From assembly GCF_019175385.1 (NCBI RefSeq), contig NC_083343.1:54830457-54894456 (forward strand): DNA of 64,000 nucleotides, in the 5' to 3' direction. The translations under genes and the position numbers were made by a program. Positions 9,724 to 62,100 of the stretch are shown one piece after another. The stretch is from Lycium barbarum (Eukaryota; Streptophyta; Magnoliopsida; Solanales; Solanaceae). Numbering within the stretch: the stretch's first letter is position 1; each line of letters begins with the position of its first letter. The notes below the pieces were generated by a model, which made no database searches, was not told the origin of the DNA, and saw nothing but the letters and a program-made list of their open reading frames with translations.

Positions 9724-10464
9724 CGTACGTTCCTCGGCACTAACATATTATATTTATGGATCGGGCTGTATGTTCCTCGGCACTAACATATATGGATCGG
9801 GCTGCACATTCCGCAACACTAATACTTATATGATATACATATACACATATGTGCTTACTTATATATGATTTTTAAGATTCATGCACGACATATTATATGT
9901 TCTCAGCTGACAGGTTACCTTTACTCTATTTATATTTCCGTCCCACTTATGTTATTGCTTCCAGCCTTACATACTCAGTACTTTTATCTTTACTGACGTC
10001 CCATTGCACGAGACGCTGCATTTCGTGCTGCAGGCTCTGACAGGGTTATTGAGGAGCGACTGCAGTAGGATTTTCCAGCTCAGCGGTGTCAGCAAGTGCC
10101 ACTACTCCGGACTTGCTACTTTTGGTACTTTTTCGCTTATGTAATATATGTTCATATGTACACTCTTAAAGGCTCATAGAGATAGTGGGGTATGTACATA
10201 TTATGTATGGCCCTGTCGGCCTTGTTTTGGGTTCTTGATATATTTCTGATAGCTTTGCCGGCTTTATAATACTAATGAGGTTGTAGCGACCTTGTCGGTT
10301 CGCATTTGTACATATATGTTAGATTATTAGACATTTCTATGTTGGGCCTTTTCTGTGTGTAGGTGTTCTTTGAGTTACGGTATATGATGTTTAGAGTAAC
10401 CGCTAAGTCAGATGGTTCCCGGCCTATGGGTGGAGCCCGTCATACACCTCGTTGGGGTGTGATA
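9724..10464 (+). mobile_element. Element A: LTR 3' half after the insertion of B
   Basis: Resumes the 44-bp array exactly where B interrupted it (CGTAC duplicated), then runs through the three-hairpin module to a terminus reading GGGGTGTGATA, a probable mutated ...GTGACA end. Element C sequence follows directly. No coding sequence. Confidence 0.75.
9976..10033 (+). promoter_or_regulatory. Three-hairpin LTR module, A copy
   Basis: Arms: CAGTA (9976-9980)/TACTG (9991-9995); CGTC (9997-10000)/GACG (10012-10015); CTGCA (10016-10020)/TGCAG (10029-10033). The third helix replaces the common G-C pair by A-T on both sides, a compensatory difference. It lies about 430 bp from the LTR end. Confidence 0.72.
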
Positions 10465-10757
10465 GACTAATGATCTAATACACTAGCAACTAGACTCATA
10501 GACCTTTGATTTGTGGGTGGATCACCCCGTAACTCCAAGTATAATGGGAGAAAAGCTCAGTGGAATTTGACCCAAATATTAATGAACTTGTGAGCGTAAC
10601 ATGCGACAACCTTTGTCGACTTTCATTTTACAACTTGCTAGACTCTAAAACTTATTGTATGACTATTAAACACTTCAAATACCTTACGACACGACCTTCT
10701 TATCATGTTGCATACTTCTAGTCTAACCCCAAAAGTAAGGGTTATAACGTTAACCCT
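10465..10757 (-). repeat. Element C 3' LTR, truncated
   Basis: Matches the end of C's other LTR near 29024-29250 (shared words: actagactc, gacccaaatattaatgaacttgtg, tttcattttacaacttgct). Its outer part is cut off by A at 10464. It abuts the poly-C tract that is C's purine tract on the minus strand. Confidence 0.72.
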
Positions 10758-12380: not shown

Positions 12381-12538
12381 ATTCTTATGACTCAGCTCTA
12401 GTGCACGATCTGGAATATCAAGAAGGGCAACAATTTATAAATTCCCTGTAGCCTCCTAATTATAAATGTGGTGCATAATCTACTCATAAGTAGGACTCTA
12501 CTAGCCACAGCTTTATAGACTCCTTAGGACACAAACCT

Positions 12539-12759: not shown

Positions 12760-13261
12760 CCACTTGGCCGTAGCACCAATTGATAATCCGACTCCTGAAA
12801 ACTAACATAACAACTGAATATAATGGACAACATACACATCATAAGTCTACAAAACATCTAGACTATCTAATATCTGTAATACTATTGGGATAGGGTCTCG
12901 ACTTAGCCATAACATCTATATACAACAAACCTGCTAGACTCCGCCCTAGGAAGTAAGTGGGGCTCACCGAATATGGCGAGATGGTAGCAATTTCCTACTG
13001 AGGAGCTCTACTACTCTGCGCATCTAAACCTGCGTCGAATAAAAGCACAACACCGCCGGTAAAAGGGACGTGAGTACAGAAAGAATTACACTCGTACATA
13101 AGGAAGACATGATAGCATATGCAAATACCGAAGCTCAACAAGAGATTAATGAAATTCAATCAAATGAATGTGTCGAGAGGCTAGGAAACAACTTATAGGA
13201 TCAGATGCTAAGGCTTATTGTACCTTAAGTCATTCTAGACTTATATCTCAATCCTTCATAG
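12555..13261 (-). repeat. Element C 5' LTR, part 1
   Basis: Begins TGTCACACCCCAAACC right after the primer site and is interrupted at 13262 by D. It contains a (TA)n stretch (about 12719-12757) and, around 13029-13105, a decayed copy of the three-hairpin module (GGGACGTGAGTAC ... CTCGTACATAAGG), with little pairing left. Confidence 0.8.
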
Positions 13262-14955: not shown

Positions 14956-17900
14956 ATCCATGGTATACATGATCACACACATCCATACAGATATTTGAAT
15001 GGTCAATTATAAGAAACCTCTTACCCCCATTATTCCCGATGCCGCACAAGATCCAAGGGGTTTCTTTGAACCCCAGGCATGGCAAACACCGGGGAGGGCT
15101 TAAGCTTGATCCATAATGACCACTTAAACCTCCCTATTAATGTATTAGATAAGAGTATACTATATGATATACATATATACAAGCCAATTGCCTTGGTTAA
15201 ATTCCAGAAAAAAAAAAGGACACTTAAACTTGTAATGCAAAACAGTAGATAGAGGTCAAGTAATGCATATGGGACTAAAACATAGATAGCTTAGCACCAT
15301 GATATATCATTATCTCACAGAAACTTAAACAGGGGACAAATATGACCCTTCAATGAGTTGCTACAAAACAGTGTAGGAAAGGAATACAAGTTATGTTGCA
15401 TAAATGTAGGCATGGTTTTAACAAAGAGGAAGACAACAATCAAACAACTAGTATGATGTTTAAACATGATGAAGCTACATTCCCTATACTAGAATCCACA
15501 TCATTTAAAGACTAAGGCATAAGTTCCAACTTAACACAGGTTAATAACATTTGCAGAATTAGCCAAAACCAAACTTTGCATTAATCAAGCTTAGTTGCAA
15601 ATAGGATCTAACTATGCCACCTTTATATTACCCTTTAAGGTTTGAACAATAGCACACAATGACCAGCTGACTGTACTCAAAATAAATGACATCTAGATAT
15701 CACCTCCCAAAGCATATTCAACACATAATAATCTTTTTTAAGTTGGTTTCCCTATTAACACCTGAGACAAATTCTCCTTAAGTCCCCTATATCACTTGTG
15801 GTTCAAGATTAATGTAACAGGACAGATTTGCGGTCATATTACCAGAACAACAGTAAACAAATGACAAACACCCTTTTCTATACTTAAGTTAAAGTGTCTA
15901 ACTTATCTTTGATAAGCATCCCACAAGAAAGCAAGGTTAAGCCTCTCTATTCAAAATATAGATTAAATTAATAGGCATATCTTTTTTTTTTCTTTTTTTT
16001 TTTAAATAAATAAAAAAAATAAAAAAAATGTCATTTTTAATGTCAAGAAAAGAAAAGAAAACATGTCAACATCAAATTAGATATGCAAGAGCGATGCAGC
16101 TGATTTTTAATGTCATTTTGAACAAATGTCTCATAAACTAAGGTGCCGTTTGACCATAAAAATTATTCACTTTTTTCCGGAATCAGCGTTTGGCCATGAA
16201 AATTCCGAATACAACTTGAAGTTGTATTCCAGAACACCAAAAACTCAAAAAAACTTGTTTTTCAAAAAAACAAAATTCACTTTTTTCACTTCTTTACAAC
16301 TACATTTCACCAAAAACTACAAATTCAAAAACTATGGCCAAACACAGCTCCAACTCTAAAATTCTAAAAAAAAGTGAATTTGTTTTGGTATCTATGGAAA
16401 AACGGGGCCTTAGTCAACAATACATGATGTGCCCATTATGGATCAACTGGACCAACACAAGAACTATACTAACATGATTCACGTTTTAGACTGATCATGA
16501 GACTAACAACATACCATAATCAACTAAAAGTGTACTAAAAAAACTCAATCATCCAGCAGACCAAAGCAAAACGACATTAACAAGATAGAACATCCTAATC
16601 ACTCACACAAACAATAAATTACAACATTAAGCTATCATAAAGAACACATAGCACACACAATATAAAGAGAACAAGAGAAAGTGGAAATTACCTTTCTAAG
16701 GCACAACCTTGAAGAGATTGAACCCGGAATCGACTCCAAACACTCCAAGCTAACAAGAACACCCAAGAAAAGATTTAAAAGAAACTTTAAACTCACTGAA
16801 AATTTTAAAGGTTTCAAGCAGAAGATAAAAACCATAGATATTCTCAGTGTTTTTGCAAGCTAAAATTATAGATTGCCCCCCTCTATTCTGAAAAAAAATA
16901 AAATAAGACCCTATTTATAGAATCTTCTAAACCCTTAAAATCTCAAATCACCCGATGAAGGACAATCCTCCAAGTTGGGGATTTTCCTCACACTTTGGTG
17001 TTGGAGGGTCAAGATTGGGTCAACTATACATCAAGGGTTAAGATTGGACTAACTAAACCCAGATCTGAAAAGTTCATCGCAAACCAATAAGATTTCAAAA
17101 TTCAAAATCGCAAACAAACAAGAACCATTAAAGGATTGCAGTGTTAGACCATTGAACAAATAATAATAATACCAAAAAATCAAGTAAATAAGCTCGTTAG
17201 CACCCCATTTGGTCGATTCGTGGTGGTAACGGGTGAAAGCATTGAATGCTTTGCCCCTTGAGGCCATGCAAAACTGTAAAAGTAAAAGGGCTTCTGCTAC
17301 TTTGCCAAAAATGGCTTCGATGACGATGAGAGAGAAGAGACCCATAGAGGTGGCTAGGGTTTCAAAGGGGAAAGGGGAGGGGACGAGCATAAGGCTCGTT
17401 TGGCAGTTGAATAATATGAATAGGGCCTTAGCCCCTTCATTTACTTCGCGAATTGGGCCGGGTCTATGTTGGGCTGGACTCGACCCCTCTGAAGAGGGCA
17501 GCCCCCCCCCCCCCCCACACATATATATATATAATGCAGCAAAAAAGAAAAAGGAAAAGAATTAATTGGTTAAAAAAAAAGACAATTTAAGAGATTGATT
17601 TACTACTAAATTGAAATTAATCAACCAATTAATTTAAAAACACGACTAATCTTCATAAAAATAATAAATTTAAGGGATGGCCTTAATTGAGTTGAAGCAT
17701 GAATTTGCTATTTTCAATTGTGGCCCCATTTTGGCTAATTAATTGATTATTTCAATTGTAGCCATAATTAACACATCATAAGAAATTTACAAATATAACC
17801 ATAATTAGTTACCCAAATCAATTATGATTAATTTAAAAAATTATCAATATGACTTGATTATGCAGAAATTAAAATTTGAGGGGCAAAAGATAATTTATTT

Positions 17901-20099: not shown

Positions 20100-23068
20100 T
20101 GTTATATCCCGCATTTTGTGCAATCGGATAATTCAAGACAATTGCGGGAAGACAACAAGCAAGGCCATATTTTATTTTGTTAAGCATATGAATGGCTTAT
20201 GAAGAATTTAGAAGTGGAATTATTAAGAAAGGTCGAGGACATAAAAGGAAATTTGCAATATGACTCGTGGATATACGGAGGAAGACGAAGGGTAAATTTG
20301 AAATTTGGAAAAAAATAAATTTTCATGAAGTGCAAAACACAAAAAAAATGGGCTTGGCTAATTGGGCCATGTTTGGCCATCCACCTAGTAGTGGGCTTAA
20401 GCCCACATGGGGCTTTAATGAACAAATTTAAAAGATGACTAAGTCATCTTTATTTGTCATAATTCTCTAGAAATTTCAAGAGTCTTGAAGAATAAGAGAA
20501 AGGGAGAAACACTTCAAAGGCCATTTCGGCCATAACAAGAGCAACAAGAACTTTGGGAATTGTTCATCAAAAATCTACCTCTTCTAGCTAAAGAATTCCT
20601 TGAAGGGTTCTTAACATAGTGAAGAGTTCTTTGGAGCAAGGAAAATACAAAGCTTGACAAGTCTTCAATAGTAATCCAAGTGAATGTTCAAAGTAAAAAG
20701 GTGAGGTTTGAACTTTTTCTTATGTGTTGTGTTATGTTGTGTGTTGGTTATTGTTGTAAAGTGTAGAAAATATAGAAATTCATGAAAATATGTATATGGG
20801 GTGTGTTGGCCGAATGGTGTGGGTTATGGAAAGGTGTGGTGAATTAATTTTACTTAGTATTGTAGTTGTTGTTATGGTAAATTCCATGATGTAAAATAAG
20901 GATTTAATGGTTAAGGAGTGAAATTGTGTTGATTGTGGATTCTAGATTGCTAATGAAAAGCTTAATGATCTTAGAGAAATCATGGTAGTTGGAGACTTGC
21001 TTTAGAGATTATGTAAATTGAAAATAATGGTCTTGAATGTATGGAAGATAATGTTGTTAGTGTGGTGTTGTTGGTATATGAATTATAATGTTGTTAATGT
21101 TCTTATTGGAGTTGGAAGGTTTTGAAGGAAGTAGTATATTGATTGTGTTGTTACAATGTAACTTGGAATGAATATGGAAATCTTTAGTCTGGTCGTTGAT
21201 ATTGTGTTGTTAGTTTGGCCGGGTCGAATTCCCGGATTGTTGTTGATTGAAATTGGCCAAGTTGAACTTGGTGGGATGGAGTAGTTTACAGGGGAAGTGC
21301 TGCCGAAATTTCGGTAGCCAAGTATCATTTAAGAATTCAATTCTAAAGGCACTAATCATGTTTGGTAAACTTGACCAATTTGTAGATTTTGGCGGATTTG
21401 TGAGTTGAATTCGGGATAGCCAAAGGAGCGGAAAGAGGTATGTAAGGTCTCACTTTCCTTCTTCGGCATGTCTTAGACATAATAGGGTTGAATACAAACT
21501 TCGGGGATGATCCTATTCCTAGAAACCCGAGATTGAAATTAACCCTTTTTCATTCAATAGAATTGGCTTAAATTTTTCATATCTTGTTGAAACAATGGCC
21601 CCTACTTCTATAACTTGCCAAATGAAGCCGGATTTTGACAAAACCTTCATAAGTGACTCCATGAAACTTATTATATGCAATTTGGGTACGCCACCCCGGT
21701 CGACCCGAGGTGGGCCCACTATTCCCAAATTCCCTCCTATTGTTCCATTTAGCTTATTTCCGTACTATAATTAAGGGAAACTTTTAGTTACTATTCCGAC
21801 TACTAAACAATAGTTGTTTAACTAATCTATTGATCCTAAGGTATGATCTTCTCCCCAATAGCTCGTAAATGTTTTCCAAACGCCCGCATTTTCCCAAAAC
21901 AAAGGTTATGGCAAAGTAAATTTTTTTGTCAATGACGATGAGTATGTTCTACAATGACATGGATGATGTCAGGAAAGAAAATTTTTACATGATGAATATG
22001 ACAATGATGATTCCATGATTAAAGATTCCATAGTACATGAAACGATACCTTATGATCCTGTTCTATGTTCTCTCATGATGTTATCCTTTATGGATAGTCT
22101 CGCCTTATAATTGTTGTTCCCTCAAGGTGAGACCTGACGACCATGACGATTTCATAATGTAATCGGAGGCTACCGACCTTACGTCACTCCGATAACGTTA
22201 TAGCTTCTTTTTGGGCTCGCTTGCATGCTATGGTATATATGTATATATGTATATGTACACGGGGAAGAAGGGAGCAGGGCAGAGCGCTATAGACGCGGGG
22301 TTACACACGGTACATGTAGCCGTATTTGACTTGATATCATCCCGGACGCGGGATGCCCGGACGCGGGATATTTACACACATTCATGGTTAAATGGATCGG
22401 CTGCCGACGCCTCGGCAATATATATTATGTTTTATTTTCATATATGAACACGAAATGTTTTTTTTAAAGAAAGCTTAGCATGCATGGCATCTGCCCTGGG
22501 TGGCACATACATGTACAAGTTACTCTATTATCGCTCTATATGTCCTATGATTTCATTATGTATTGGTTGCAATTTATATTCCTCTCTTTACTATTTTCAT
22601 GCCTTACATACTCGGTACACTATTCGTACTGACGTCCCTTCTTGTGGACGCTGCGTTTCATGCCGCGCAGGTAAGCAGGTAGACGGATCCGGTTCTTAGA
22701 AGCTCCACCAGCGGTTCATAGAGAGTGCTCCAGTTGTTCCGGAGCCACTGTTTATTGGTACTATTTTGTGTATATATATATATATATTCGGGTGTGACAG
22801 TGCTCGGCCCTTCTTGTGTATATGTGTATTATGTCTAGAAGCTCGTAGACAGATGTGTACAGTTAAATGTTTTGTACTTTTAGAAGTCCTAGTCGATGTA
22901 TAATGTGTTAGTAAAGGTTGTTCGCCTAGGTTCATAATTATGCTACTAATGTTAATGTTAAGTAACAAAAAAAATACGGCCCACTTAGTAATAAGGATAT
23001 GAGACAAGATAAGGGGTGCTCGGTACAAGTACCGGGTACTCGTCACGGCCCCTAGTCGGGTCGTGACA
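20100..23068 (+). mobile_element. Element F: solo LTR
   Basis: 2969 bp beginning TGTTATATCCCGCATTTTG and ending CTAGTCGGGTCGTGACA, flanked by CCCCC on both sides (20095-20099, 23069-23073). Related end to end with I and N (same TGTTATA start and GTCGTGACA end) and shares inner blocks with A and B. No primer site or coding region inside. It carries two CCCGGACGCGGG units and one GCCG/CGGC unit at 22341-22422, then the three-hairpin module. It sits in E's polypurine tract. Confidence 0.9.
22613..22670 (+). promoter_or_regulatory. Three-hairpin LTR module, F copy
   Basis: Arms: CGGTAC (22613-22618)/GTACTG (22626-22631, one G-U pair), CGTCC (22633-22637)/GGACG (22646-22650), CTGCG (22651-22655)/CGCAG (22666-22670). 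Preceded by the conserved lead CTTACATACT. About 400 bp from the LTR end. Confidence 0.77.
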
Positions 23069-30292: not shown

Positions 30293-30373
30293 TTTTTTTT
30301 CTTCAATCAACCCTCTCCTCGAGGGCTCTATTTTATTCATATTCTCAAAAATACATCACAGAGGAGAGCTATC
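30293..30373 (-). other. LINE G 3' untranslated end with poly(A)
   Basis: 81-bp tail of G cut off from the body by H (CTATC at 30369-30373 is H's target duplication). On the minus strand it ends GATTGAAGAAAAAAAA, then the target duplication. Confidence 0.85.
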
Positions 30374-30779
30374 TGTCATACCCCAACCCTAGTAAGGCGT
30401 GACTGGCACCCGACATCTTACGGAAAGCGAGCGAACCAACTTATAACTCGCATCTTCTATGTCTCAAACGGCAAAATAAGACCAAGGGGCTAAATACAAA
30501 CATAATAGCATGCATAAGTGTATATGTATACCATGGGCCCACAAATCCGATATAACGACTGGCAAGACATAACTAAGCGGTATACAAGACACCGTCTGCA
30601 AAGCCTCTATGAACCTGACTGAAGTATACAAGTTGGGACAAGGCCCCCGACATACCCTTAACACAAACTACATATACGACCCAGACTCGGCAATGCTCCA
30701 GGAAAAGGTGGAACCCACCAATCAAAACTGGTACCTGAAATCAGCCTACTGGGGAAGATCCTCGTCCCATCTATCTACA

Positions 30780-30836
30780 CATGAGGGCATGAACGCAGGG
30801 TCCATAAGAAAGGACGTCAGTACGAATAATGTACCG
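30780..30836 (-). promoter_or_regulatory. Three-hairpin LTR module, H 3' LTR copy
   Basis: The middle helix GTCC (30800-30803)/GGAC (30812-30815) and the CAGTAC (30818-30823)/GTACCG (30831-30836) helix are kept (a G-U pair in the LTR-sense RNA). The CTGCG/CGCAG helix has lost one arm here (CATGA), though it is kept in the partner LTR. Confidence 0.65.
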
Positions 30837-31030
30837 AGTATGTAAGGCGAAAATGTAATATAATAAATATATATATGTTGCAGGAAGGAAAGATAAGCAT
30901 CAACTTTGCACTTCTGACTTACTAATGAGAAACTTGTACGCATGTCCCTTTATACTCTCATATATTTATCTACATCTATATATAATACTGTGATCCTGAA
31001 CTATGCATCATATATCATCCTGGTGCTATC

Positions 31031-31278
31031 TGCCCAACTGCTCAGTGGTAACTGCCCGACCCACCGTAGCACGGTGGTAACTGCCCGTTCGATTATTGCC
31101 CGACGGTAGAGCGCAACTGCCCGACTGATCAGTGGTAACTGCCCAACCGGCCGTAGCTCGGTGGTAATAACTGCCCAACCAGCCATAGCATGGTGGTAAA
31201 TACATAACTGCCCAACTGGTCGTAGACCAGTGGTAAATACATATTTGCTCAACTGGTCGTAGACTAGTTGTAATTATA
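31031..31278 (-). repeat. Tandem hairpin array in H 3' LTR
   Basis: Seven or so units of roughly 30-45 bp, each framed by ACTGCCCRAC and GTGGTAA. The centre of each is an inverted repeat with different bases: CCACCG/CGGTGG, CTGATCAG, CCAT/ATGG, CTGGTC/GACCAG. The matching array in the right LTR is at 34264-34508. Confidence 0.8.
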
Positions 31279-33284
31279 ACCACCATCATGACCTTGTCTC
31301 CCTGAGTAATCTCTATGTACTTCTCATGGCCATCACTTGTCCGTTATAGCATACACGATCGCATAAGGCTTATAAGCACAGTTCGGGGCCATAAGGACCT
31401 CTTACCGCTTAACTGAACATTAACTAGACTCTGAGATCAATCATAAGCATCTCTTCCAGCATCAAATACCTTATTGGGGATCCTCTTCTAGTACTCTATT
31501 TATGTCCCACAAGACAATACCTAAGTACACATTTCTAAACGCCTTGGAGTGACATAAGGTCGGTAAACCTCCAATTAAGATTATGGAACTATCATCATGA
31601 ACATATCTCACCTTGAAGGAACAAGATCATAAGATGAGATCAACAATAACGAATGACATCTACAGTTATGAAACGAGCTCAATGATATCATAAGAACATC
31701 GAGAACTATAAGCTTTGATACTTTTAGAAACAAGGTTATCGAAGATATCATGTATAGGTTCACAACAAAGGAATCATGCCTTAAGAAAGAAAGGGTTTAG
31801 CCTTAACATACCTAAAAAATCACTTCTCGACTTTCCAACCTACCTCCCATCTTGCAATCTATTTACGATCGTTCGTAGTCTCGTAATCTACATATAAAAC
31901 CATTCATACTATTGTTAGACTCACCATCATACACTTGTCTCAAGTCCTTAATTAAAATCCTTTTAGAATCTGCCGAAATTCGGGCAGCATCTCCCCTGTT
32001 TATGTACCTAGCCCAAAATCACAATACCAACAAAACAACAACAATAGCAATACTAATATCAACAACATCATCATAAATACCAAAATATTCCATAAAACAT
32101 CCCACACGATGTTTTTCAACATACAACAACAGTATACACTTCCTTTCTTCCCTATCAAGGAGCGTAATCTCACCAACACACAAACAACATTAGATACCAT
32201 CCATATACATGTAAATCATCCCAACAACATGGCCACAACATGCTCAAAACAGTCCATAACACAACAACTACAGCACACCACTCTATGACCTTTCCTCTAT
32301 AACTATTTTCACTTTTAAGACTTGCTAATCCTTCAAATCAACTCAACATAAGGGATAGGATGAAGAACATACCTTATAATTGAAGAACTCTAGCCACACC
32401 AACTTTCATCAAGACCAAACTCACCACAACATCAAGTAGAAGCAAGAACAATCACCTTTCATAGACTAGTTTGGTGTAATCTTGTTAAATTCTTGATTTA
32501 ATGGGCTATAAATGTTTGGGGGATGTGTTGGGAGATTTGTAAAACTCATGAGAGTTTAGAATGATGAAAAAAATGGGGTTGATGGGTTTTTATACCCCTT
32601 CTAAGTCGATTGCACCGACTTTCCCAAGTGGGACCTGCAGAAATCATTTGGCAGCTTGGAGTCTTTAACTTAAAATGCCCATAACTCCCTACTCCGATGT
32701 CGTTTTGACGAGCGATTTGGTGCGTTGAAAACTAGACTCGACAAAATTCATTTTAGGCTGTTGAAACATCTTAAAACTCCTGATATACCTGGAGATATAC
32801 CCCTCCAAATTTGACCTAAAATTCTGTCCAAAATTCTGCCAACCTTTTTCCAAATTTTCGACAAACCTATTTTCTTCTATTTGCCTGGTCCCGTAATCTT
32901 CCAAAACTCTCCATACATGATATTTATCATTAATCATACTTGAAAATGGTCATGTCCTTTGGTTCCAAGGTTGTTCTTCCCGGTTACGACTTAAGAGATC
33001 GTAATTCATCCTTTACTTCATTGATATATACTTTCGATGGTTGTACCTTTCAAAATTTCACATATACTAAAAGATATTCTTTCTCCAAGTTGGGCCAAAA
33101 TTGCCCGTCCTATTTTCTCCAAAGTTCCGACAAACTTAATTTCCTCAAATTACTTGTCCTCCAATCCTTCCATAAGTTATTGTATGAACTTAAACCCTCA
33201 TAACCATAAGATAAACACATATAATTTCACATACTTCCTGAAAGGTAGCTCGAATCTCAACATACGAAACTATGGGGTGTAACA

Positions 33285-33321
33285 TCCTTCTCCCCTTTAA
33301 AAACATTCGTCCTCGAATGTT
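33285..33321 (-). promoter_or_regulatory. Element H polypurine tract and pol-end palindrome
   Basis: The minus strand reads TTAAAGGGGAGAAGGA against the 3' LTR, preceded by arms AACATTCG/CGAATGTT (33302-33321). Nearly the same arrangement as in B. Confidence 0.83.
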
Positions 33322-33591: not shown

Positions 33592-33603
33592 GCTCTGATA
33601 CTA
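33592..33603 (-). promoter_or_regulatory. Element H primer binding site, mutated
   Basis: The minus strand reads TAGTATCAGAGC; the second base of the usual TGGTATCAGAGC is changed. It lies three bases inside the 5' LTR. Confidence 0.85.
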
Positions 33604-34013
33604 ATTTGTAACACCCCAACACTGGTAAGGCGTGACTGGCACCCGGCATCTTACGGAAACCGAGAGAACCAACTTATAACTCGCATCCTCTATGTCTCAA
33701 ACGACAAAATATGACCAAGGGGCTAAATACAAACATAATATCATGCATAAGTGTAAATATATACCATGGGCCCACGAATCCGATATTACGACTGGCAAGA
33801 CATAACTAAGCGGTATACAAGACACCGTCTGCAAAGCCTTTATGAACCTGATTGAAGTATACAAGTTGGGACAGGGCCCCCGACATACCCTTAACACAAA
33901 GTACCTATACGACCCAGACTCAGCAATGCTCCAGGAAGAAGTGGAGCCTACCAATCAAAACTGGTACCAGAAAACAACTTATTGGGGAAGATCCTCGTCC
34001 CGTCTATCAACAC

Positions 34014-34069
34014 CTGCGGGCATAAACGCAACGTCCACAAGAAAGGACGTCAGTACGAATAATGTACTG
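34014..34069 (-). promoter_or_regulatory. Three-hairpin LTR module, H 5' LTR copy
   Basis: TGCG (34015-34018)/CGCA (34027-34030), ACGTCC (34031-34036)/GGACGT (34045-34050), CAGTAC (34051-34056)/GTACTG (34064-34069). One of the best-paired copies; the middle helix has six pairs. Confidence 0.77.
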
Positions 34070-34263
34070 AGTATGTAAGGCGAAAATGTAATATAATAAA
34101 TATATATATACCGCAGGAAGGAAAGATAAGCATCAACTTTGCACTTCTGACTTACTAATGAAAGCTTGTACGCATGTCCCTTTATACTCTCATATCTTTA
34201 TCTACATCTATATATAAAACTGTGATCCAGAACTACGTATCATATATCATCTTGGTGCTATCT

Positions 34264-34508
34264 ACCCAACTAATCAGTGGTAACTGCCCGACCGGCCGTA
34301 GCATGGTGGTAACCGCTCGTCCGATTATTGCCCGATGGTAGAGCACAACTGCCCAACTGATCAGTGGTAACTGCCCAATCGGCCGTAGCTCGGTGGTAAT
34401 AACTGTCCAACCAGCCATAACATGGTGGAAAATACATAACTGCCCAACTGGTCATAGACCAGTGGTAAATACATATCTGCCCAACTGGTCGTAGACCAGC
34501 GGTAATTA
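34264..34508 (-). repeat. Tandem hairpin array in H 5' LTR
   Basis: Counterpart of 31031-31278, with the same unit order and scattered base changes. The CTGGTC/GACCAG units at 34447-34500 remain perfectly paired. Confidence 0.78.
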
Positions 34509-36647
34509 TAACCACCATTATGACCTTGTCTCCCTGAGTAATTTCTATATACTTCTCATGGCCATCACTTGTCCGTTATAGCATACACGATCGCATAAGT
34601 CTTATAAACACAGTTCGGGGCCATAAGGACCTCTTACCGCTTAACTGAACATTAACCAGACTCTGAGATCAATCATAAGCATCTCTTCTAGCATCAAATA
34701 CCTTATTGGGGATCCTCTGCTAGTACTCTATTTATGTCCCACAAGACATTACCTAAGTACACATTTCTAAACGCCTTGGAGTGACATAAGGTCGGTAAAC
34801 CTTCGATTAACATTGTGAAACTATCATCATAAAAATATCTCACCTTGGAGGAACAAGATCATAAGATGAGATCAACAATAATGAATAACATCTATAGTCA
34901 TGAAACGAGCTCAATGATATCATAAGAACATCGGGAACTATAAGCTTTGGTACTTTTAGAAACAAGGTTATTGAAGATATATGTGTGTAGGTTCACAACA
35001 AAGGAATCATGCCTTAAGAAAGAAAGGGTTTAACCTTAACATACCTGGAAACTCACTTATCAACTTTCCAACCTACCTCCCGTCTTGCAATCCATGTATG
35101 ATCGTTCGTAGTCTCGTAATCTACATATAAAACCATTCATATTATTGTTAGACTCACCATCATACACTTGTCTCAAGCCCTTATTTAAAATCGTTTTAGA
35201 ATCTACCGAAATTCGGGCAACATCTTCCCTGTTTATGTACCTAGCCCAAAATCGCAATACCAACAAAACAACAACAATATCAATACTAATATCAACAACA
35301 TCATCATCATTACCAAAATATTCCATAAAACATCCCACACGATGTTTTTCAACATACAACAACAATATACACGTCCTTTCTTCCCAATCAAGGAGCGTAA
35401 TCTCACCAACACACCAACAACATTAGATGCCATTCATATACATGTAAATCAGCCCAACCACACGGCCACAACATGCTCAAAACAGTCCATAACACAACTA
35501 CAGCACAACACTTTATGACCTTTCCTCCATAACTATTTTCACTTTAAAGACTTGCTAATATTTCAAATCAACTCAACATAAGAGATAGGATGAAGAACAT
35601 GCCTTATACTTGACGAACTCTAGCCACACCAACTTTCTTCAAGACCAAACTCACCACAACATCAAGTAGAAGCAATAACAATCACCTTTCATGGATTAGT
35701 TTGGTGTAATTTTGTTAAATTCTTGATTTAATGGGCTATAAATGTTTTGGGACGTGTTGGGAGATTTCTAGAACTCAGGAGAGTTTAGACTGATGAAAGA
35801 AATGGGGTTGATGGGGGGGGGGGGGGTTTATACCCCTTCTAAGTCAGTTCCACCGACTTTCCCAAGTGGGACCCGCGGAAGCCATTTGGCAGCTTGGAGT
35901 CTTTATCTTAAAATGCCCATAACTCCCTACTCCGATGTCGTTTTGACGAGTGATTTGTTGCGTTGAAAACTAGACTCGACAAAATTCATTTTAGGCTTTT
36001 GAAACATCTTAAAACTCCTGATATACCTAGAGCTATACCCCTCCAAATTTGACCTAAAATTCTGTCCAAAATTCTGCCAACCTTTTTCCAAATTTTCGAC
36101 AAACCTATTTTCTTCTATTTGCCTGGTCCCGGAATCTACTGAAACTCTCCATACATGATATTTATCATTAATCATAATTGAAAATGGTCATGTCCTTTAG
36201 TTTCAAGGTTGTCCTTCCCGGTTATGACTTAAGATCATAATTCATCCCTTACTTCATTGCTATGTACTTCCCATGGTTGTACCTTTCAAAACTTCACATA
36301 TACTAAAAGATATTCTTTCTCCAAGTTGGGCCAAAATTGCCATTCCTATTTTCTTCAAAGTTCCGACAAACTTAATTTCTTTAAATCACTTGTCCTCCAA
36401 TCCTTCCATAGGTTATTGTATGAACTTAATCCCTCATAACCATAAGATAAACACATATAATTTCACATACTTCCTGAAAGGTATCTCTAATCTCAACATA
36501 CGAAACTACAGGGTGTAACACTATCTCCCTGCACTTATCATTGTATGGACAGTCCCTATACTAGGCTTGATAGGATTTCCTTTAAGCTTACAAAAAACAT
36601 TGGTACAATGGAAGAGTGACTACTCTTCTTCTATACAAAAATATGAG

Positions 36648-42646: not shown

Positions 42647-42703
42647 CAGTACATATTCCGTACTGACCCTCTTTTCTTCGGGGGGCTGCGTTCATGCCCG
42701 CAG
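42647..42703 (+). promoter_or_regulatory. Three-hairpin LTR module, I copy
   Basis: CAGTAC (42647-42652)/GTACTG (42660-42665); CCCTC (42667-42671) with five of the six Gs at 42680-42685; CTGCG (42686-42690)/CGCAG (42699-42703). The middle helix has entirely different bases from F but still pairs. Confidence 0.77.
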
Positions 42704-43251
42704 GTACAGACGCTCGTTTCGGAAATCCGCCAGCCTAAGATATCTATTCAGCTACTTTGAAATGCTCCTTTGTTCCGGAGCCTAGCTTGTGGTATAACTC
42801 CCTTTTGTTGTATATGTATGTGTTTATTTGGGGTACGGCGGGGCCCTGTCCCATCATATGATACTGTCAGTACTCTTAGAGGTCTGTGGACACATGTGTG
42901 GGTCTGTATATAGTTGTTGTTGCGTTGTATGAATATGACTTATGTTTAGGGCGTACCCATTCGTAATGGCAGCCTTGTCGGCTTGCATATATATACATGT
43001 TTGGGATGTTGCGTGTAGTGGCAGCCTTGTCGGCTTGCGTAGATATATATATATATTGTTGTTGAAGATCGTAACTCCTCAGGAGACAGGTGCTTACGAC
43101 ACACAGAATTTGTGACAGCTTTAGAATAACGTCCTGTTTGTTTTTATACAAATAAGTTCATAATATGCTGGTTATAAAAGATTATAGTTAACAGGTGATA
43201 TGAGTGTCCAATTCGGACACAAGTCACGGCCTACGGGGTTGGGTCGTGACA

Positions 43252-49659: not shown

Positions 49660-50240
49660 TGTGCCGCCCCGCCCTTTTCCGCGCCTGTCAGCCCGCAACT
49701 AGCGCCAGGCGCTAGTCAAAGTCAGCCTGCCGAAGGGCCCACCAGAGTGGGACGCCCACTCACAAGACAAGAGTGGGAGACCAGCCGCCCACTTACAATA
49801 ATGGGACGCCCATTTACAGGACAAGAGTGGCAGACCAGCCACCCACCTTTCTGCTCGTGGGCCACTGGCCAACTAAACCAAGCACTCAACCTGCCAGCTT
49901 GTGGTCCATAACAGCAAGTTGTTCAGCACAGCCACATACTTAGAGGCCCACTGTATAGCATAGGGCAGATTTTCCATCTATAAAACATGTAAGCCTTGAG
50001 GCCAGAGTTATTCACTTACTTCATCTTTTGTATTCTTGTAAAGATACATTTATAGCATATATCAGAAAAGGGCACTTGCCTCCCAAAACCTGTGTTCATC
50101 TTCCTTAGCTTCTTGTGTGTGCTTTGCCTGAGAGTTATTCACAGTCTTCCGCCAGTGACAGAGAGTTGGGCTGAAGCATTGAGCGGTAGTTAAGACCATC
50201 AACGCTGCCCCACGCCGCCTTAGATTTTAGGCCCGTGACA
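49660..50240 (+). repeat. Element L 5' LTR
   Basis: TGTGCCGCCCCGCCC...GGCCCGTGACA. TATAAAA at 49979-49985 is a plausible promoter box. Internal GGGACGCCCA...ACAAGAGTGG words repeat twice (about 49750 and 49803). ORFs here are not genes. Confidence 0.95.
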
Positions 50241-50242
50241 AG

Positions 50243-50253
50243 TGGTATCAGAG
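50243..50253 (+). promoter_or_regulatory. Element L primer binding site (tRNA-iMet)
   Basis: TGGTATCAGAG two bases after the LTR, complementary to initiator Met tRNA. Confidence 0.94.
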
Positions 50254-50265
50254 TGAGTTACAATC

Positions 50266-52190
50266 ATGGCCAACACCAACGAAGAAGCTGTCTACGACGA
50301 GCACCACGGTGGAGACAAGTCCCCTACTAAGAGGACGACCAAACAGAAGAAACAACGGGACAAAAGCCAAGTTAGAGGGCTACCCGCTGTTACTTCCGAA
50401 GGGCTGACCTTTCAGCCACAGTCCTTAGGTGAAGCGAGCGACAGTTCGGTGTCGAACACGCTGGTGGAGAAAATCATCCACGCAGAGGCTGGACTATTCG
50501 CCTTGAACCAGCGGTTTGACACCTTACAAGGGAACTTAAATTCTCTTGAGTCAATATCTCTTGATGGACTAGAGCAAGTCCAAAACGAGCATAAAATAGA
50601 GAGCGACGAGCACAAGGAGGAGCTGACCGGCCTTGAGTTCAGGCTCATGGAGGCGCTGGCCGGTTTGCAAGCAAAGGTGGAGACCTTGGAAACACAACTG
50701 GAAGCGTCCCAGCTCAGAAACGGTGCTGGTCCAGTCCACATTCGGGAAACTCGAATAGAGGTCCCTAAACCCAGAAACTTCAAGGGTGAAAGGAACGCTT
50801 AGGAGGTGGAAGACTTCATTTGGCAAATGGATGCGTACTTTGAGCACGTCAACATAAATGACGAAGCTATTCGCATCCGGACAGCAGCCATGTACTTGAG
50901 CGACACCGCCGCACTGTGGTGGCGGAGAAAGAAGGCGGACATGGAAAAAGGAACGTGTTCCATCGAGGATTGGGAACAGTTCAAGAGGGAGTTAAAGCGG
51001 CAGTTTTACCCCCTAAATGTTGTTCACGAGGCCCGTCGAAAGTTGAGGGAGCTCAAGCAAACATCCTCCATCCGCGAGTACGTGAAAGAGTTCACAAAGC
51101 TCACTCTTCAAATCCCAAGCATGAACAACGAGGATTTGTTGTTCTACTTCTTGGATGGCCTTCAAAACAGGGCCAAACAAGAATTACAAAGGCGTCAAGT
51201 TGAAGATCTTGACGAAGCCATTGTGGTGGCGGAGTCTTTGAATGATTTTCGCACCGAAAATAACAAGGAAAAGGATAACTGCGGGAAGCAAGTAGCTGCC
51301 AAGGTTGATCAAGGCACCGGGGACAAAAACAAATTTGTTCCCCACAAGGGTCGTGATTTCAGAGGAGATCGGGACCGCAACCGAGGTTCCAAATCTAATT
51401 TTCGTAAAAACTACGAAGAAAAGAAGAAGAACTCCACACCAAACGATGGCTGTTATTTGTGTGGACAATCAGGCCATCTTTACAGAAATTTCCCTTCATT
51501 AGGCAAGCTGGGCGCAATGCCTGCTGCCAATAAACAATCATGTGCGCAAACCGGGGCTCAGACCGGTGAACAAGGTGAACAGACGGAGGCTGCAGAGCAA
51601 GCTAAGGCTAAAGTGGCAGGCTTGTTCAATCATATGACACTTGCTGCCATCACGGCTAAGCTGCCTCAAATCAGGCCGAGGGAGTCACTGTTGGTGGAAG
51701 TAACATTAAAAGGCAAACCAGTCCGCATCATGGTGGACACGGGTGCAACGCATAACTTCGTTACCGAGGCAAAGGCAAAAGAATTGGGCCTTTCTTATGT
51801 TTCTAGTGACTCACTGTTAAAAACAGTCAACTGCCTCCCCACGGACGTAAATGGATTTGCCCCAAAAGTCCATCTCATCTTAGCCACTTGGCAAGGGTTC
51901 ACCGATTTCACTGTTGCCCCGATGGATGTTTTTGACATCGTATTGGGTATAGACTTTTGGTATGAGATCAAAGCGTTCATTTCGCCGCGTCTCAACCAAC
52001 CTTTGATTAGAGATCCAAGTTGTTCTTGCGACGTGCCGTTAGTTCGTGTGCATCAAGCGGGCGTGCGCTTGTCAGCTATGCAGTTGGTGAAAGGGTTTAA
52101 GAAAGGGGAACCTACCTTTCTTGCAACTCTTGTGACAGCAGAAAATGAAGCAGTTCCAAGGAAGGGGAAGCAATATTCCTATGCGTGCAA
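50266..52190 (+). pseudogene. gag: Element L gag and protease, broken
   Basis: Starts at ATG 50266, 13 bp after the primer site. 178 codons (coiled-coil-like, residues ~70-150) end at an in-frame TAG (50800-50802). The same frame then runs on for 473 codons with the capsid domain (DFIWQMDAYFEH, AALWWRRKKADM, LRELKQTSSIREYVKEFTKL). The knuckle CYLCGQSGHLYRNF (51451-51492) has lost its last Cys (Phe instead). Protease follows, with active site MVDTGATHNFV (GAC ACG GGT GCA, 51736-51747) and the second motif IVLGIDFW. Near 52165-52190 the frame shifts into RT. The Cys loss and TAG predict no working Gag. Confidence 0.9.
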
Positions 52191-53588
52191 TGGGTCCTTG
52201 TGGAGACAGGGACGTGATGCCCGATGAGCTACCCAAGCGGTTACCCCCACGAAGGGAGGTTGACCACCAGATCGAGCTGGTTCCAGGAGCCAAGCCACCC
52301 GCCATGTCCCCTTATCGCATGGCACCACCAGAGCTAGAAGAGCTGAGAAAGCAGCTCAAAGAGTTGCTTGAAGCTGGGCACATCCGCCCATCTAAGGCAC
52401 CATTTGGAGCACTTGTGTTGTTCCAAAAGAAGAAAAAAGGAAAGTTGAGGCTATGCATTGAATATCGTGCCCTTAACAAGGTCACAGTTAAAAACAAGTA
52501 TCCCATTCCTTTAATTGCCGATTTGTTCGATCGGTTAGGGCAGGCCAAGGTCTTCACCAAGATGGATCTGAGGAAAGGATACTATCAAGTGTGTATTGCC
52601 GAGGGGGACGAGTCAAAGACGACTTGTGTGACCCGATATGGGGCCTTCGAGTGGCTAGTTATGCCATTCGGCCTAACCAATGCTCCTGCTACCTTCTGCA
52701 CACTGATGAACAAACTCTTCCACCCATTTTTAGACCAGTTTGTTGTGATCTACTTCGATGACATCGTAGTATACAACAACATCTTGGAAGAGCATCTGAA
52801 ACATCTCTGCACGGTCTTCCAAGTATGACCTGTGCGTCAAGCAGGAGAAATGCACTTTTGCCCAGCCACAAGTACAGTTCCTTGGCCACACAATCAGCCA
52901 AGGGGAAATCAGAATGGATAGCGACAAGGTTAGCGCTATTCAAGATTGTTAGGTCCCGACCAAAGTAACTGAACTTCGGTCCTTTCTTGGCCTTGCCAAG
53001 TACTACAGGCGGTTCATTCTTGGATACTCAGCTATCGCAGCACCACTGACCGACTTGTTAAAGAAGAGTCATGAGTGGAAATGGACCCCTTTGTGTCAAG
53101 AGGCATTTGACGGCCTCAAAGAAGCAATTGTGAGGGAGCCTGTCTTGGCTCTACCTGACTTTACTAAGGTGTTTGAAGTCCACACCGATGCATCAGATTT
53201 TGCCATTGGCGGTGTCCTTATGCAAGTGGGACACCCCATAGCCTTTGAAAGCCGGAAGTTGAACGAGACGGAGCGGAGATACACTGTCCAAGAAAAGGAG
53301 ATGACGGTCGTAGTCCACTGCCTAAGGACTTGGCGTCATTACTTGCTGGGGGCACACTTTACTGTCAAAACGGATAACGTGGCGACAAGTTATTTCCAGT
53401 CTCAGAAGAAGCTATCACCCAAGAAGGCTCGGTGGCAAGACTTTCTAGCCGAATTTGACTACACCCTAGAGTATAAGCCAGGAAAGGCCAATGTTGTGGC
53501 CGATGCGCTGAGTCGCAAAGCAGTGCTGGCAACTATGGTCAGGACAGCCAGCAGTGATATTATAGATGCAATCAAGCAGGGCATGTAA
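52190..53588 (+). pseudogene. pol: Element L reverse transcriptase and RNase H, broken
   Basis: The RT frame (52145-52828) shows [38 protein letters not shown] and the catalytic YFDDIVVY (codons at 52751-52762). A frameshift near 52815, then VKQEKCTFAQPQVQFLGH and a TAG near 52950 in the connection, break it. RNase H runs 53055-53588 with the Asp/Glu residues in [36 protein letters not shown] and VVADALSRK. These domains make cDNA and remove the RNA template in an intact element. Confidence 0.9.
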
Positions 53589-54715
53589 CACGACCCAGTG
53601 GCACAATAGATTCTTGTCTTAGCCAGTCAAGGCAAGACGAAGAAATTTTGGGCTGATGACGGTGTTCTCTACACCACAGGCAGGCGCATTTATGTGCCAA
53701 AATGGGGCAATCTGAGGCGTACCCTAATCAAGGAAGGGCATGACACAGCCTGGGCAGACCATCCAGGGCAGAAACGGACCATGGCATTGCTAGAGTCATC
53801 GTATTACTGGCCGCGCATGAGGGACGACATTGAAGTCTATGTCCGCACATGTCTTGTATGCCAACAAGACAAGGTAGATAACAAGGCACCTGGGGACCTA
53901 CTGGAACCGTTACCCGTAGCTGAGAGACCATGGGACAGCGTCACCATGGACTTCATCACATGCTTGCCCAATTATGAAGGCTTTGGCACAATTATGGTGG
54001 TGGTGGATCGTTTCTCAAAGTATGCAACATTCAGCCCCACCACGGCTAGTTGCCAAGCCAAAGAAGCTGCAAGGTTGTTTCTAAAGAACGTCGTCAAGCA
54101 TTGGGGCGTGCCGAGGCATATCATATGGCCAAGGCTTGGGAGGAGCAAATGGATTTGGCCATGTCATATCTTGACAAGGCTGCCCGCAAAATGAAGAAGT
54201 TTGCCGATCGAAAACGTCGCCCGACAAATTACAGAATTGGTGACAAAGTCATGGTCAAGCTCAATCCGAGGCAGTTCAACTCCATAAGGAGCCTGAATCA
54301 GAGTCTGATTCGACGATACGAGGGTCCCTTTGAAATCATTGCCAAGGTGGGCAAGATTTCTTACCGGTTGGACATGCCTCATCACCTGAGAATATACCCC
54401 GTCTTCCATGCGAGTCAATTAAAATCATACTTCGAAGACAAGGAAGACGAGGGTCGAGCACAAGCCAGCCGTGCTAGGATCTTTGAGACTCCTGCAGCAA
54501 AAGACAAAGAAATCGAAGCCATCATTGACCATCAGTTAGTCCGAAGCAAAGGTTGGGGCAACTCGAAGGCTCAATTTCTTGTCCATTGGAAGGGACAACC
54601 GCCCGAGGAGGCTACATGGAAATCATACGAGGACTTATGGCAATTCGAGGATAAGGTCCATGAATTCTTGCAGTTGTGTGGCGCCACGGTCGTCGCCAAA
54701 ACAGTTGAGGGAGAG
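53589..54715 (+). pseudogene. pol: Element L integrase (deleted core) and chromodomain
   Basis: Two stops follow RNase H, then the integrase HHCC finger (GHDTAWADHPG ... CLVCQ, about 53739-53862) and the first catalytic Asp (VTMDFITCLP). Around 54113 the sequence jumps from GVPRHI to an AYHMAKAWEEQMDLA stretch in another frame. The segment with the second Asp and the Glu is missing, roughly 110-120 codons by comparison with related elements. The C-terminal GPFEIIAKVGKISYRLDMP domain and a chromodomain (EAIIDHQLVRSKGWGNSKAQ to WQFEDKVHEFL, about 54509-54670) remain. A chromodomain would steer integration to marked chromatin. Confidence 0.88.
54707..54715 (+). promoter_or_regulatory. Element L polypurine tract
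   Basis: GAGGGAGAG directly before the 3' LTR. It lies inside the pol reading frame: the frame stays open across it and about 84 codons into the LTR (stop at 54965-54967). Confidence 0.8.
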
Positions 54716-55296
54716 TGTGCCGCCCTGCCCTTTTCCGCGCCTGTCAGTCCGCAACTAGCGCCAGGCGCTAGTCAAAGTCAGCCTGCCGAAGGGCCCACCA
54801 GAGTGGGACGTCCACTCACAAGACAAGAGTGGGAGACCAGCCGCCTATTTACAATAATGGGACGCCCACTTACAGGACAAGAGTGGCAGACCAGCCACCA
54901 ACCTTTCTGCTCGTGGGCCACTGGCCAGCTAAAGCAAGCACTCAACCTGCCAGCTTGTGGTCCATAACAGCAAGCTGTTCAGCACAGCCACATACTTAGA
55001 GGCCCACTGTATAGCATAGGGCAGATTTTCCATCTATAAAACATGTAAGCCTTGAGGGCAGAGTTATTCACTCACTTCATCTTTTGTATTCTTGTAAAGA
55101 TACATTTATAGCATATATCAGAAAAGGGCACTTGCCTCCCAAAACCTGTGTTCATCTTCCTTAGCTTCTTGTGTGTGCTTTGCCTGAGAGTTATTCACTG
55201 TCTTTCGCCAGTGACAGAGAGTTGGGCTGAAGCATTGAGTGGTAGTTAAGACCATCAACGCTGCCCCACGCCGCCTTAGATTTTAGGCCCGTGACA
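54716..55296 (+). repeat. Element L 3' LTR
   Basis: 581 bp, identical in length to the 5' LTR with about 15 substitutions, most of them C/T or A/G. TATAAAA at 55035-55041. Followed by TAAT. Confidence 0.95.
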
Positions 55297-59119: not shown

Positions 59120-62100
59120 TGTCACGACCCAGCCCCGTGGGCCGCGACTGGTGCCCTATTTGGACACCCAAACAGACTTACGTACCAGATCGACATATCA
59201 AAATTCATTCAAACTTAACATACGTCATTTTAAGCAAATACTGAAAGCAAATATCATCTTAAGCGGTCGCCCGTACAGAAACATCATATCAAAATCCAAT
59301 AGATTGGCGGGATACACATCGCCAGATATATACACATATACAGACAAATGGGCCGTTTTGGCCATAATAGTAAACGGGGCAGCATTAAGACGCAGATCAT
59401 AATCACAAACGAACAAACATGACTCATGACCCACATAGATGACTACAGGCCTCTACCAAAACATAACAGAAACATATGACGGGACAGGGCCCCGCCGTAC
59501 CCCAAATAGTCATACATATATACAGAGACATATACCATGAAAGGTCTTTACCAAAAGTATGGGCTCCGAGTCAAAGGAGCACTCCAAAGTAGCAGAATGT
59601 ATCCTGGGTCACCAGAACAAACGTCTGTACATGCGGGCATGAAACGCATCCCCCGAAGAAAGGGGGTCAGTACGAAATATGTACTGAGTATGTAAAGCAT
59701 GAGGTACAGTAATCCAAATCAGAACTGAAATAAAGAGTATGGAAAGCGGTTACAGAACCAGTATATCAAACCTGTTATAAAACATAAGTAATGCAAATAA
59801 AAATCATGCATAAGGCTCAGGAACGTGGTCGCCACTCCGACACTAGCGCCACAACACATCATACTCCAGAAGGTTTCAAATCTCCGTACAATCCCCGAAC
59901 ATATCGTATCATCATATCACATCACAATACCAGAACATATCATATGTCATATCACATCATAACGCTATATATAAGCGGAACCCGACCCTATGGTGAGGCC
60001 TCGGGAACCGTAACACATCATACTCCCGAATATGACATAGTACGCACGATCACAAAGCCGGCCCGAGATCCGGCGAACGATATCATAGTAGTATGCACGA
60101 GCGGAGTAGTGAGGAAACCATATGCATATAAATACATAAACAAATTTCAAAACTCGATGGGCAAATATATTTATGACATCCGAAGGCTCAGAAATCAGTT
60201 TCGGGTCAATCGGAGTTAGTATGCGAAAGTTACAAACTTTTGAAGTACAGAAGTTTCTAAAGGCATTTCAGAAGCTCTTTTCGGAAATTCAAGTGACATT
60301 CATATTAGGGAAACTTTCAACCATTACTATAGAGCAAATCAGATGGAGCTTTTAAGATCATATGTATGTATCAAAATATATGTATCTAAAACTTTAGCCA
60401 TATCAAATCTTTTTGGACATCATTCGGAAGTATACCAACTAGAATCTTTCGAACCGAAAATTATTTCATAAGTCATACTTGGAAATTTAAGTATCATTCA
60501 TATTAGAAGACTTCCGAACATCATTATGGATCACATATTCATATTAGGAGACTTGCGGATAACATTATGGATCAAATCAAATGGGGACTTTAAGACCATA
60601 TTTTCATATCGAAATATTCATCAAAGGCTTTAGTCTTCTCGTTTTTCTTTCTTTCGAACAACATTCGGAACATAACGAATAGGATCTTTGAACATCATAA
60701 AATATGTATCCAGCCATATGGAATAGCTTATGGAGGTCAAAGATATTAGCCATCCTAGTGGCTCTAAGAATAGGATTTTTCTTTAGGAGCATACTTATAC
60801 GTTATTTGTTCATTCAAAGAAAAGGTCATGCCAAAAGAAAGAAAGGTAGGCTATACATACCTCAATCGCTCGCTAACCAAATCCCGACTCAAGTCTCGGG
60901 CTCTCCAATATCTACAATAATATTATCAATTACCAAATATTAGCTACAAGTACTTAGAAGTTTAATTCTAATTAGTACTTGTCTACAGAAATTTCGGCAG
61001 CATCTCCCCTGTAAATTCAACATCCCCGAGAATTAAACTCGGCCAAATTCATCAACAACCATTCCAACAATACCAACAACCAAACCAATAACATCAAAAA
61101 CCAATTTAAAATGTATTCCAACACTAGTAACCTTCCTTTCAACATAATTCACCGACATTCCATTCAACTACGGATTTTTCAAGCCAATATCGACGCCTAC
61201 ACATTCATTACCAATTCAAGACCATTCAAATGCAATGCAAATCATTTCATACCATTTTACAAAATATACAAAAAATCCACCAAGACTAGAATTCATCCGA
61301 AATCTCCAACCTTCGACACAACATTCACAACACATTTTTCATCTTCCCATTTCATCAACAACAACCACAATTTACACTTTAACAATTCCATTTCCATAAT
61401 TTCATAAATCTACAATAAAATCACCAAATTTCCTACAACAACTTAACCAAAATTTTCATGCCAACTTGAACTAGAATTCTTCCATTTGCATTAAAAGGCC
61501 ATTACAACACAATTAACATAATAAATAAAATTTGATCATTCCTCTCCATCAATACCCATTTTCGGCCACACACACACATACCCATGACACTAAATTTTCA
61601 TACTCTACATTCATTCCCACATACTACAACATATATAAAAAAATTCTTCCAAGCTAAAAAGAGTAGAATTCTTACCTTTTCCAAATTCTCCACTTTGTAA
61701 AAAAGGTACTTTCTTGCCTCAAAGTTTATACCACGTTGAAGAGGGTCTTGAGCTTAGTAGGAATACAAGAAAATTACAATTTTTGGACTCAAGATGATGG
61801 GATAAAAATTTTCTTTTCTTTTCTTTTCTTTGTGTTGGCCGAATGGCCCTTCAATTGGGTGCTCTCAAGTTGTTGTTCTTGAAACTTCTTGAAATGAAGA
61901 GTTGTGGCCTCTTTTTTTCTTTTTAATACATGGTCTAAATTTTACTTGGGCTTGGGCCTTTTTCCCATATCCATGGCCGGCCACCCCTTTTTATTTGGGC
62001 CTCTTGTTTTTTTTTTTCTCTTTTGAGCCCAATTAGTTATGGGTCTTGTTTTGTAATTCCCGAAACTAATTTCTAAAATTTTCCATTTTTCCCTTGACCT

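Follow-up and report, generated by a model that had tools for sequence, protein, structure and literature searches.

A 64-kb stretch of contig 7 of the 1.67-Gb Lycium barbarum genome (NC_083343.1, positions 54,830,457 to 54,894,456; hereafter the window) carries eight copies of a ~57-nt module made of three end-to-end hairpins and lodged in the long terminal repeats (LTRs) of retrotransposons. The module is a real and very abundant feature, conserved in structure, that probably acts as RNA. Its carriers look like diverged families of one lineage of chromodomain Ty3/gypsy elements (chromoviruses). Selection on the structure of the sense RNA is likely, though well short of certain. The account that we find best overall, at about even chances, is that of a cis-acting structure of the element's sense RNA, most likely a packaging or dimerization signal.

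Layout, folding, and abundance of the three-hairpin module

Read in the sense of the LTR, the module consists of CTTACATACT, hairpin 1 (CAGTAC-N7-GTACTG), one A, hairpin 2, and hairpin 3. Its variation was assessed in 111 distinct sequences, a non-random sample in which 79 came from one pattern listing of contig 1 and the rest from individual loci. Hairpins 2 and 3 both have 5-bp stems, closed by loops of 7 to 12 and 7 to 11 nt, respectively, and the spacers between consecutive hairpins measure 1 and 0 nt in all 111 copies as aligned. The arms of hairpin 1 are nearly invariant and its loop has 7 nt in 106 sequences; loop 3 reads CATGCC in 86. Stem 2 occurs as CGTCC/GGACG, CCCCC/GGGGG, CATCC/GGATG, and other variants, and stem 3 as CTGCG/CGCAG or CTGTG/CACAG. 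All 16 pairs are standard in 59 of these sequences, and 15 pairs are in another 29. The eight window copies were first listed in a preliminary description of this DNA; every one of them lies at the same coordinates and in the same orientation, and a covariance model (R1) detected them all at E<1e-4 (Table 1). A ninth, decayed copy proposed in the LTR designated C is plausible but did not reach significance (14.8 bits; E, 0.42).

As isolated RNAs, six of the eight copies in the window (both of A, those of F, I, and N, and the one in the 5′ LTR of H) adopted three adjacent hairpins with z values of −3.2 to −5.2, stem lengths being shifted by one pair in some of these folds. The other two did not: the copy in B took an alternative fold (z, −1.3), and that in the 3′ LTR of H has lost stem 3 (z, −1.7). 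A scan of nine 75-nt bins from −240 to +425 (signed offsets are nucleotides relative to the module) over 33 copies (the last two bins hold 32) revealed a folding excess confined to the module bin, in which the mean z was −2.24 for the sense and −2.15 for the antisense strand, against −0.35 to +0.59 in the other bins.

The pattern CAGTAC-N7-GTACTG, which is its own reverse complement and therefore reports the same sites from both strands, was found at 90,810 sites genome-wide, versus 45 for the reversed pattern. A module-free pattern fixed on the flanks (GCYTTACATACTN{52,74}AGGTA) matched 22,964 + 23,938 = 46,902 sites, versus 1 + 3 = 4 when reversed. Such genome-wide pattern counts of repeats are lower bounds, and their distance from the reversed controls excludes a chance origin. 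Model R1, built from 15 copies (5 from the window and 9 from the 20 sampled stretches mentioned below), was applied to 273 kb and retrieved 34 copies at E<1e-4, among them the eight of the window. At the same threshold, 23 copies were located in 20 stretches of 10 kb taken at round coordinates on contigs 1 to 7, and 3 in three later stretches (contigs 8, 10, and 12), none of them used for building the model. These 26 copies in 230 kb correspond to ~190,000 copies genome-wide. A stem 2 pattern with two mismatches stayed at the chance level in the window (6 found, 5.7 expected). In scans of viral contigs from other species, two further patterns gave no match, and one match (L025) was dismissed as chance, since it lies inside a long open reading frame and its contig neither contains repeats nor resembles the window.

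Compensatory changes and strand asymmetry

The module is the best conserved part of the region from −400 to +440. Information content, computed from ungapped columns in which indels blur the register downstream, reached 1.3 to 1.5 bits at 0 to +40 and did not exceed 0.23 outside −20 to +80. About 332 of 399 pairwise matches covered the module, and 169 of the 399 pairwise matches (<85% identity) started at −10 to −1, i.e., the likeness between families begins abruptly just upstream. The 111 sequences provide 1,776 pair cells, of which 1,603 hold Watson-Crick pairs, 82 G·U, 52 A·C, and 39 other combinations. Stem 2 pair 2 is C-G in 52, G-C in 42, and A-U in 4 sequences; stem 2 pair 3 is C-G in 56 and U-A in 50; and stem 3 pair 4 is C-G in 71 and U-A in 24. 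Covariation resides in these three pairs, where double changes keep the pairing, as the preliminary description had it when it proposed a selected structure; stem 1 hardly covaries, G·U pairs apart.

These patterns were evaluated on alignment A2 and on A3, the alignment made with the model; alignment A1, with its GGGGG arm out of register, was set aside. In A3 (36 rows), which was fitted to the structure, 94.1% of 556 cells are paired and covariation amounted to 0.245, versus 0.143 in shuffled alignments, none of which (500) scored as high, and no more than 0.080 once the partners were slid. A tree-based null applied to the 111 sequences, aligned blindly to structure, placed stem 2 pair 2 at the top of all column pairs (E, 0.15) and stem 2 pair 3 third (E, 0.47), with values of 0.001 and 0.003, respectively, when restricted to the 16 pairs. 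Thirteen double changes could be placed on the tree, nine of them leading from one Watson-Crick pair to another. A conserved RNA secondary structure with compensatory changes is thus well supported, with partial support from the tree-based null.

Hairpin 1 also permits a comparison between strands. Because it is palindromic, an A-to-G substitution in the 5′ arm and its mirror image, T-to-C in the 3′ arm, share their close neighbors and are equivalent as DNA. In the sense RNA, the former yields G·U and the latter A·C. Genome-wide and with identical flanks required, stem 1 pair 2 was G·U at 15,608 sites and A·C, its mirror form, at 347, a disparity that is expected under selection on the sense RNA and that a symmetric DNA palindrome can hardly account for. 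The G·U form is seen with at least 10 loop 1 types among the first 50 matches listed and with both main stem 2 types, which argues against a single subfamily as its source. Stem 2 pair 2 leans the same way genome-wide (G·U 1,439 versus A·C 1,048; p 5e-15, on copies that are not independent; G-C 20,093), as does pair 2 of HP5, a candidate hairpin further downstream in the same LTRs (G-C 6, A-U 4, G·U 8, A·C-type 1). This asymmetry provides moderate support for selection on the sense RNA.

Several observations weigh against this interpretation. In the tree-based null, an unpaired column pair ranked between the two stem 2 pairs (E, 0.23), indicating that subfamily contrast feeds the covariation signal, and stem 3 pair 4 was not significant over all column pairs (E, 7.8). 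The G·U excess is mainly that of stem 1 pair 2, without which the 111 sequences hold 62 G·U and 52 A·C cells. Stem 3 is unbiased (G·U 22 and A·C 19 overall; U·G 5 and C·A 8 at pair 4; G·U 2 and A·C 6 at pair 5), and HP5 leans little over its pairs 1 to 6 (G·U 12, A·C 8). The G·U state of stem 1 may derive from few founders and have been spread by copying and recombination. Changes from Watson-Crick pairs gave 12 G·U and 8 A·C on internal branches of the tree, and 41 and 37 on terminal branches, where near equality is expected from neutral decay after insertion. Sense and antisense folding energies did not distinguish the strands at the module in the 33 copies, and RNA and DNA folds, like those of both strands, were about equally stable relative to their own shuffles.

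Carrier elements and position of the module in the LTR

The module-bearing LTRs align poorly yet are collinear: the module is followed by a CTTTTGKGTA-like word, the HP5 hairpin, a TAGAGGCTCGTAGACA-like word, and a common LTR end. The CTTTTGKGTA-like word lies at ~+150 to +165 in many LTRs (mean best match of 10.9/13, versus 9.6 in shuffled sequences), and the TAGAGGCTCGTAGACA-like word at ~+185 to +245 in most. HP5 (GRYGGG-N7-CCCGYC), at ~+180 to +210, has a candidate in 22 of 32 LTRs, 16 of which form at least 5 of its 7 pairs. Behind one module-bearing 5′ LTR (L010), searched in five pieces that all matched, we identified, in this sequence, gag, protease, reverse transcriptase, RNase H, integrase, and a chromodomain, the integrase core scoring slightly below the cutoff (31.2 of 32.6 bits). 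Another such LTR (L016) precedes protease and reverse transcriptase matches; the single open reading frame behind a third (L024) had no domain match. The collinear motifs, together with the chromovirus domains behind one LTR, underlie the assignment of the carriers to one chromovirus lineage, and the earlier wording of unrelated-looking LTRs was therefore an overstatement. This lineage is presumably Del/Tekay-like.

A primer-binding site like TGGTATCAGAGC (at most 2 mismatches), presumably of the tRNA-iMet type, follows the LTR end within a few bases in 11 of 33 copies, 9 of which have TGACA as the LTR end; its absence after the LTR end in the other 22 is what would be expected of 3′, solo, or broken LTRs. 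In the 11 copies, the primer site starts 446 to 601 nt after the start of CTTACATACT, which bears out the near-constant distance from the LTR 3′ end noted earlier, and the module ends ~375 to 530 nt before the LTR end. Not all carriers are coding elements. The two LTRs of H (30371-33294 and 33604-36529; 2.9 kb each, 93% alike) enclose only ~0.3 kb, and this coding-poor family, nearly devoid of internal sequence, must rely on others.

Whether the module belongs to U3 or to the transcribed repeat depends on where transcription starts. With a TATA matrix, TATA-like zones were found on both sides, from −150 to −90 and, more sharply, from +150 to +187. Upstream sites (−150) occur in 44% of copies versus 17% of shuffled sequences, and downstream sites (+150) in 41% versus 6%, with TATAWA in 11 of 33 copies within one 20-nt bin of the downstream peak. 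If the downstream TATA is the promoter, with a start near +190, the module lies in U3 and only near the 3′ end of the RNA; to this extent the downstream peak counts against a place in R. An upstream start would place it in R or the leader, at both RNA ends or near the start. We take the abrupt onset of likeness between families at the upstream border of the module as leaning toward this second arrangement.

Table 1. Module copies and associated features in the window, with strand and covariance model scores
Feature	Position	Strand	Particulars	Score
Module, A 3′ LTR	792..847	−	All 16 pairs; stem 2 CATCC/GGATG, stem 3 CTGTG/CACAG	90.1 bits
Module, A 5′ LTR	7207..7262	−		88.4 bits
Module, B	9976..10033	+	Diverged; alone no three-hairpin fold	40 bits, E 2e-7
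Module, F	22613..22670	+	Stem 1 CGGTAC/GTACTG with G·U pair; stem 3 one pair longer	81 bits
Module, H 3′ LTR	30780..30836	−	Stem 3 decayed; stem 1 G·U	82.8 bits
Module, H 5′ LTR	34014..34069	−	z −5.2	93.9 bits
Module, I	42647..42703	+	Stem 2 CCCTC/GGGGG type	84.2 bits
Module, N	59631..59686	−	Stem 2 CCCCC/GGGGG, stem 3 ATGCG/CGCAT	76 bits
Candidate decayed ninth module, C	13028..13102	−	Not significant alone	14.8 bits, E 0.42
Primer-binding site after A 5′ LTR	6815..6826	−	LTR end GTGACA; at most 2 mismatches to TGGTATCAGAGC	
Primer-binding site after H 5′ LTR	33592..33603	−	One mismatch to TGGTATCAGAGC	
HP5 hairpin, I	42836..42856	+	GRYGGG-N7-CCCGYC type; ~200 nt downstream of module start	
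HP5 hairpin, N	59477..59497	−		

Other features of these LTRs and of the window deserve mention. Near-regular runs of modules on contig 1, five at ~4.74 kb, three at 4.96 kb, and six at ~5.2 to 5.8 kb (G000:C1:1774778-1793808, 11510795-11520779, and 25236796-25264869), look like tandem arrays of LTR elements with common LTRs. Tandem repeats of 43 bp lie in and beside the LTRs of A (287-404, 996-1095, and 7412-7510), and several other LTRs have GC-rich hairpin-like subrepeats (GGATCGGGCTGCACGTTCCGCAGC and CCCGGACGCGGG) upstream of their module. A CATGCATG motif, which we regard as RY-like, is located at about −105 in several LTRs, downstream of a TATA-like run. The window also contains a different chromodomain Ty3/gypsy element (49660-55296) with gag, protease, reverse transcriptase, and chromodomain matches and 0.58-kb end repeats that are 97% alike; the covariance model search found no module in it.

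Candidate functions and known systems

The three hairpins may be a cis-acting signal in the sense RNA of one chromovirus lineage, common to its coding and coding-poor families. The module would belong to R, the part of the LTR that is both transcribed and repeated, or to sequence adjoining it, and hence lie close to one end of the genomic RNA or to both, where the shape of the stems and loop 3 (CATGCC) might be read by Gag/nucleocapsid or by a host RNA-binding protein. This reading would most likely serve packaging or dimerization of the genomic RNA, and with a shared signal, coding-poor families, H for example, could use the proteins of autonomous relatives. Packaging or dimerization fits best because the shape is common to coding and coding-poor families, loop 3 is conserved, and the module would lie near an RNA end; taken by itself, this assignment of a task is doubtful, and the module may instead act in transcript stability, export, or 3′ processing. 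We further propose, tentatively, that the structured RNA with its ~190,000 copies is a lineage-wide recognition signal acted on in trans by proteins of the autonomous families, and part of an array of at least four hairpins that includes HP5.

The same palindromes could instead operate as DNA, namely as U3 inverted repeats upstream of a TATA box at ~+160 to which dimeric transcription factors bind, a role proposed for Sirevirus motifs. The sharp downstream TATA-like peak, the nearly invariant arms and nearly constant loop length of stem 1, and the alike folding of both strands would all suit such an element. However, stems 2 and 3 change sequence and yet stay paired, and their loops vary by 4 to 5 nt, unlike protein half-sites in DNA; a symmetric site has no reason to favor one mirror form, as stem 1 does so markedly with G·U over A·C; and the downstream CTTTTGKGTA-like motif, which might just as well be a poly(A) upstream signal, comes without TATA in many copies. 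On balance, we judge a DNA element rather unlikely. The more specific suggestion of a TGACG-based promoter element fares poorly as well, CTGACG being present in 37 and CTGACC in 50 of the 111 distinct copies. Another role in DNA form would be that of a structure in single-stranded cDNA, or a cruciform, for reverse transcription or integration. The fold does come out the same with DNA energy parameters (four strands tried; z, −3.7 to −5.4), but the sense-strand G·U bias at stem 1 and the remoteness of the module from integrase or primer sites make this very unlikely.

Neutral inheritance would require no task at all: an old palindromic stretch, shared by ancestry, might have been homogenized by copying and recombination while remaining functionless. 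The carriers do look like one lineage, and subfamily contrasts account for part of the covariation; the module is nonetheless the best conserved part of the region, covered by most pairwise matches, and its pairing is kept at 94 to 95% across families, so we consider this explanation improbable. Least probable of all seems a splicing element, in which the T-rich tract (45 to 50% T from −60 to 0) and CAG at the start and CAG|GT after stem 3 would define a mini-exon or splice donor. Among the 30 copies placeable by script (of 33), 28 do have GT after stem 3, but pairing also fixes the CAG at either end, and the length of the module varies with its loops.

Searches for known structures returned no Rfam family above threshold in the window, ribozymes included (12.9 bits at best around one module copy, versus a threshold of 94), and ARAGORN found no tRNA-like structure there. 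The leader of HIV-1 carries the TAR, poly(A), DIS, SD, and psi hairpins. By description, the module is akin to such retroviral leader stem-loops in its several short adjacent hairpins in or near LTR-encoded sequence, putatively transcribed in the case of the module, its conserved loops, and pairing that outlasts sequence; it differs in having no palindromic 6-nt dimerization loop, as loop 3 holds CATG only. Among plant retrotransposons, Del/Tekay belong to the chromodomain Ty3/gypsy elements and BARE to Ty1/copia. BARE of barley has dimerization and packaging signals in common with a parasitic element without its own Gag, according to the portions of the study considered here (PMC3735527); sharing with elements that are not self-sufficient is what links it to the module, a likeness by description. 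Passages of the Del LTR study describe long LTRs whose 5′ part is variable and whose 3′ part is conserved, a design that the module carriers resemble; they name ten genomes, none from Solanaceae, and the main text contains none of the terms hairpin, palindrom-, and stem (PMC4029996). The palindromic repeated motifs of Sireviruses likewise have dyad symmetry and precede a TATA box in plant LTRs. In the excerpts covered, each of these Ty1/copia elements repeats a single palindrome 8 to 32 times, and a CGG-CCG core is present in nearly all (PMC2829016). The module is, in contrast, one ordered set in Ty3/gypsy without that core, and a Sirevirus-type repeated palindrome was rejected, as the three hairpins of the module are different and single (stems CAGTAC, CGTCC/CCCCC, and CTGCG). 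Retrozymes, described in the sections considered as plant retroelements with hammerhead ribozymes, also combine a folded RNA with a plant retroelement, unlike the window, which is devoid of Rfam ribozyme matches (PMC4918200). A survey of LTRs states, in the part covered, that plant Metaviridae LTRs were not modeled, their length variation being too great (PMC3601003). Within the excerpts of the open PMC literature considered, we recognized neither such a module nor a covariation-supported RNA structure of plant Ty3/gypsy LTRs, and sequence words from the module and LTR had no match in open PMC papers.

Chromoviruses make up a large share of many plant genomes, and we found little literature on their cis-acting RNA signals. 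With its tens of thousands of copies, the module offers a short anchor that can be searched for, of use in LTR annotation and in the grouping of families that can hardly be aligned. It may likewise serve as a handle on how coding-poor families are mobilized in trans.

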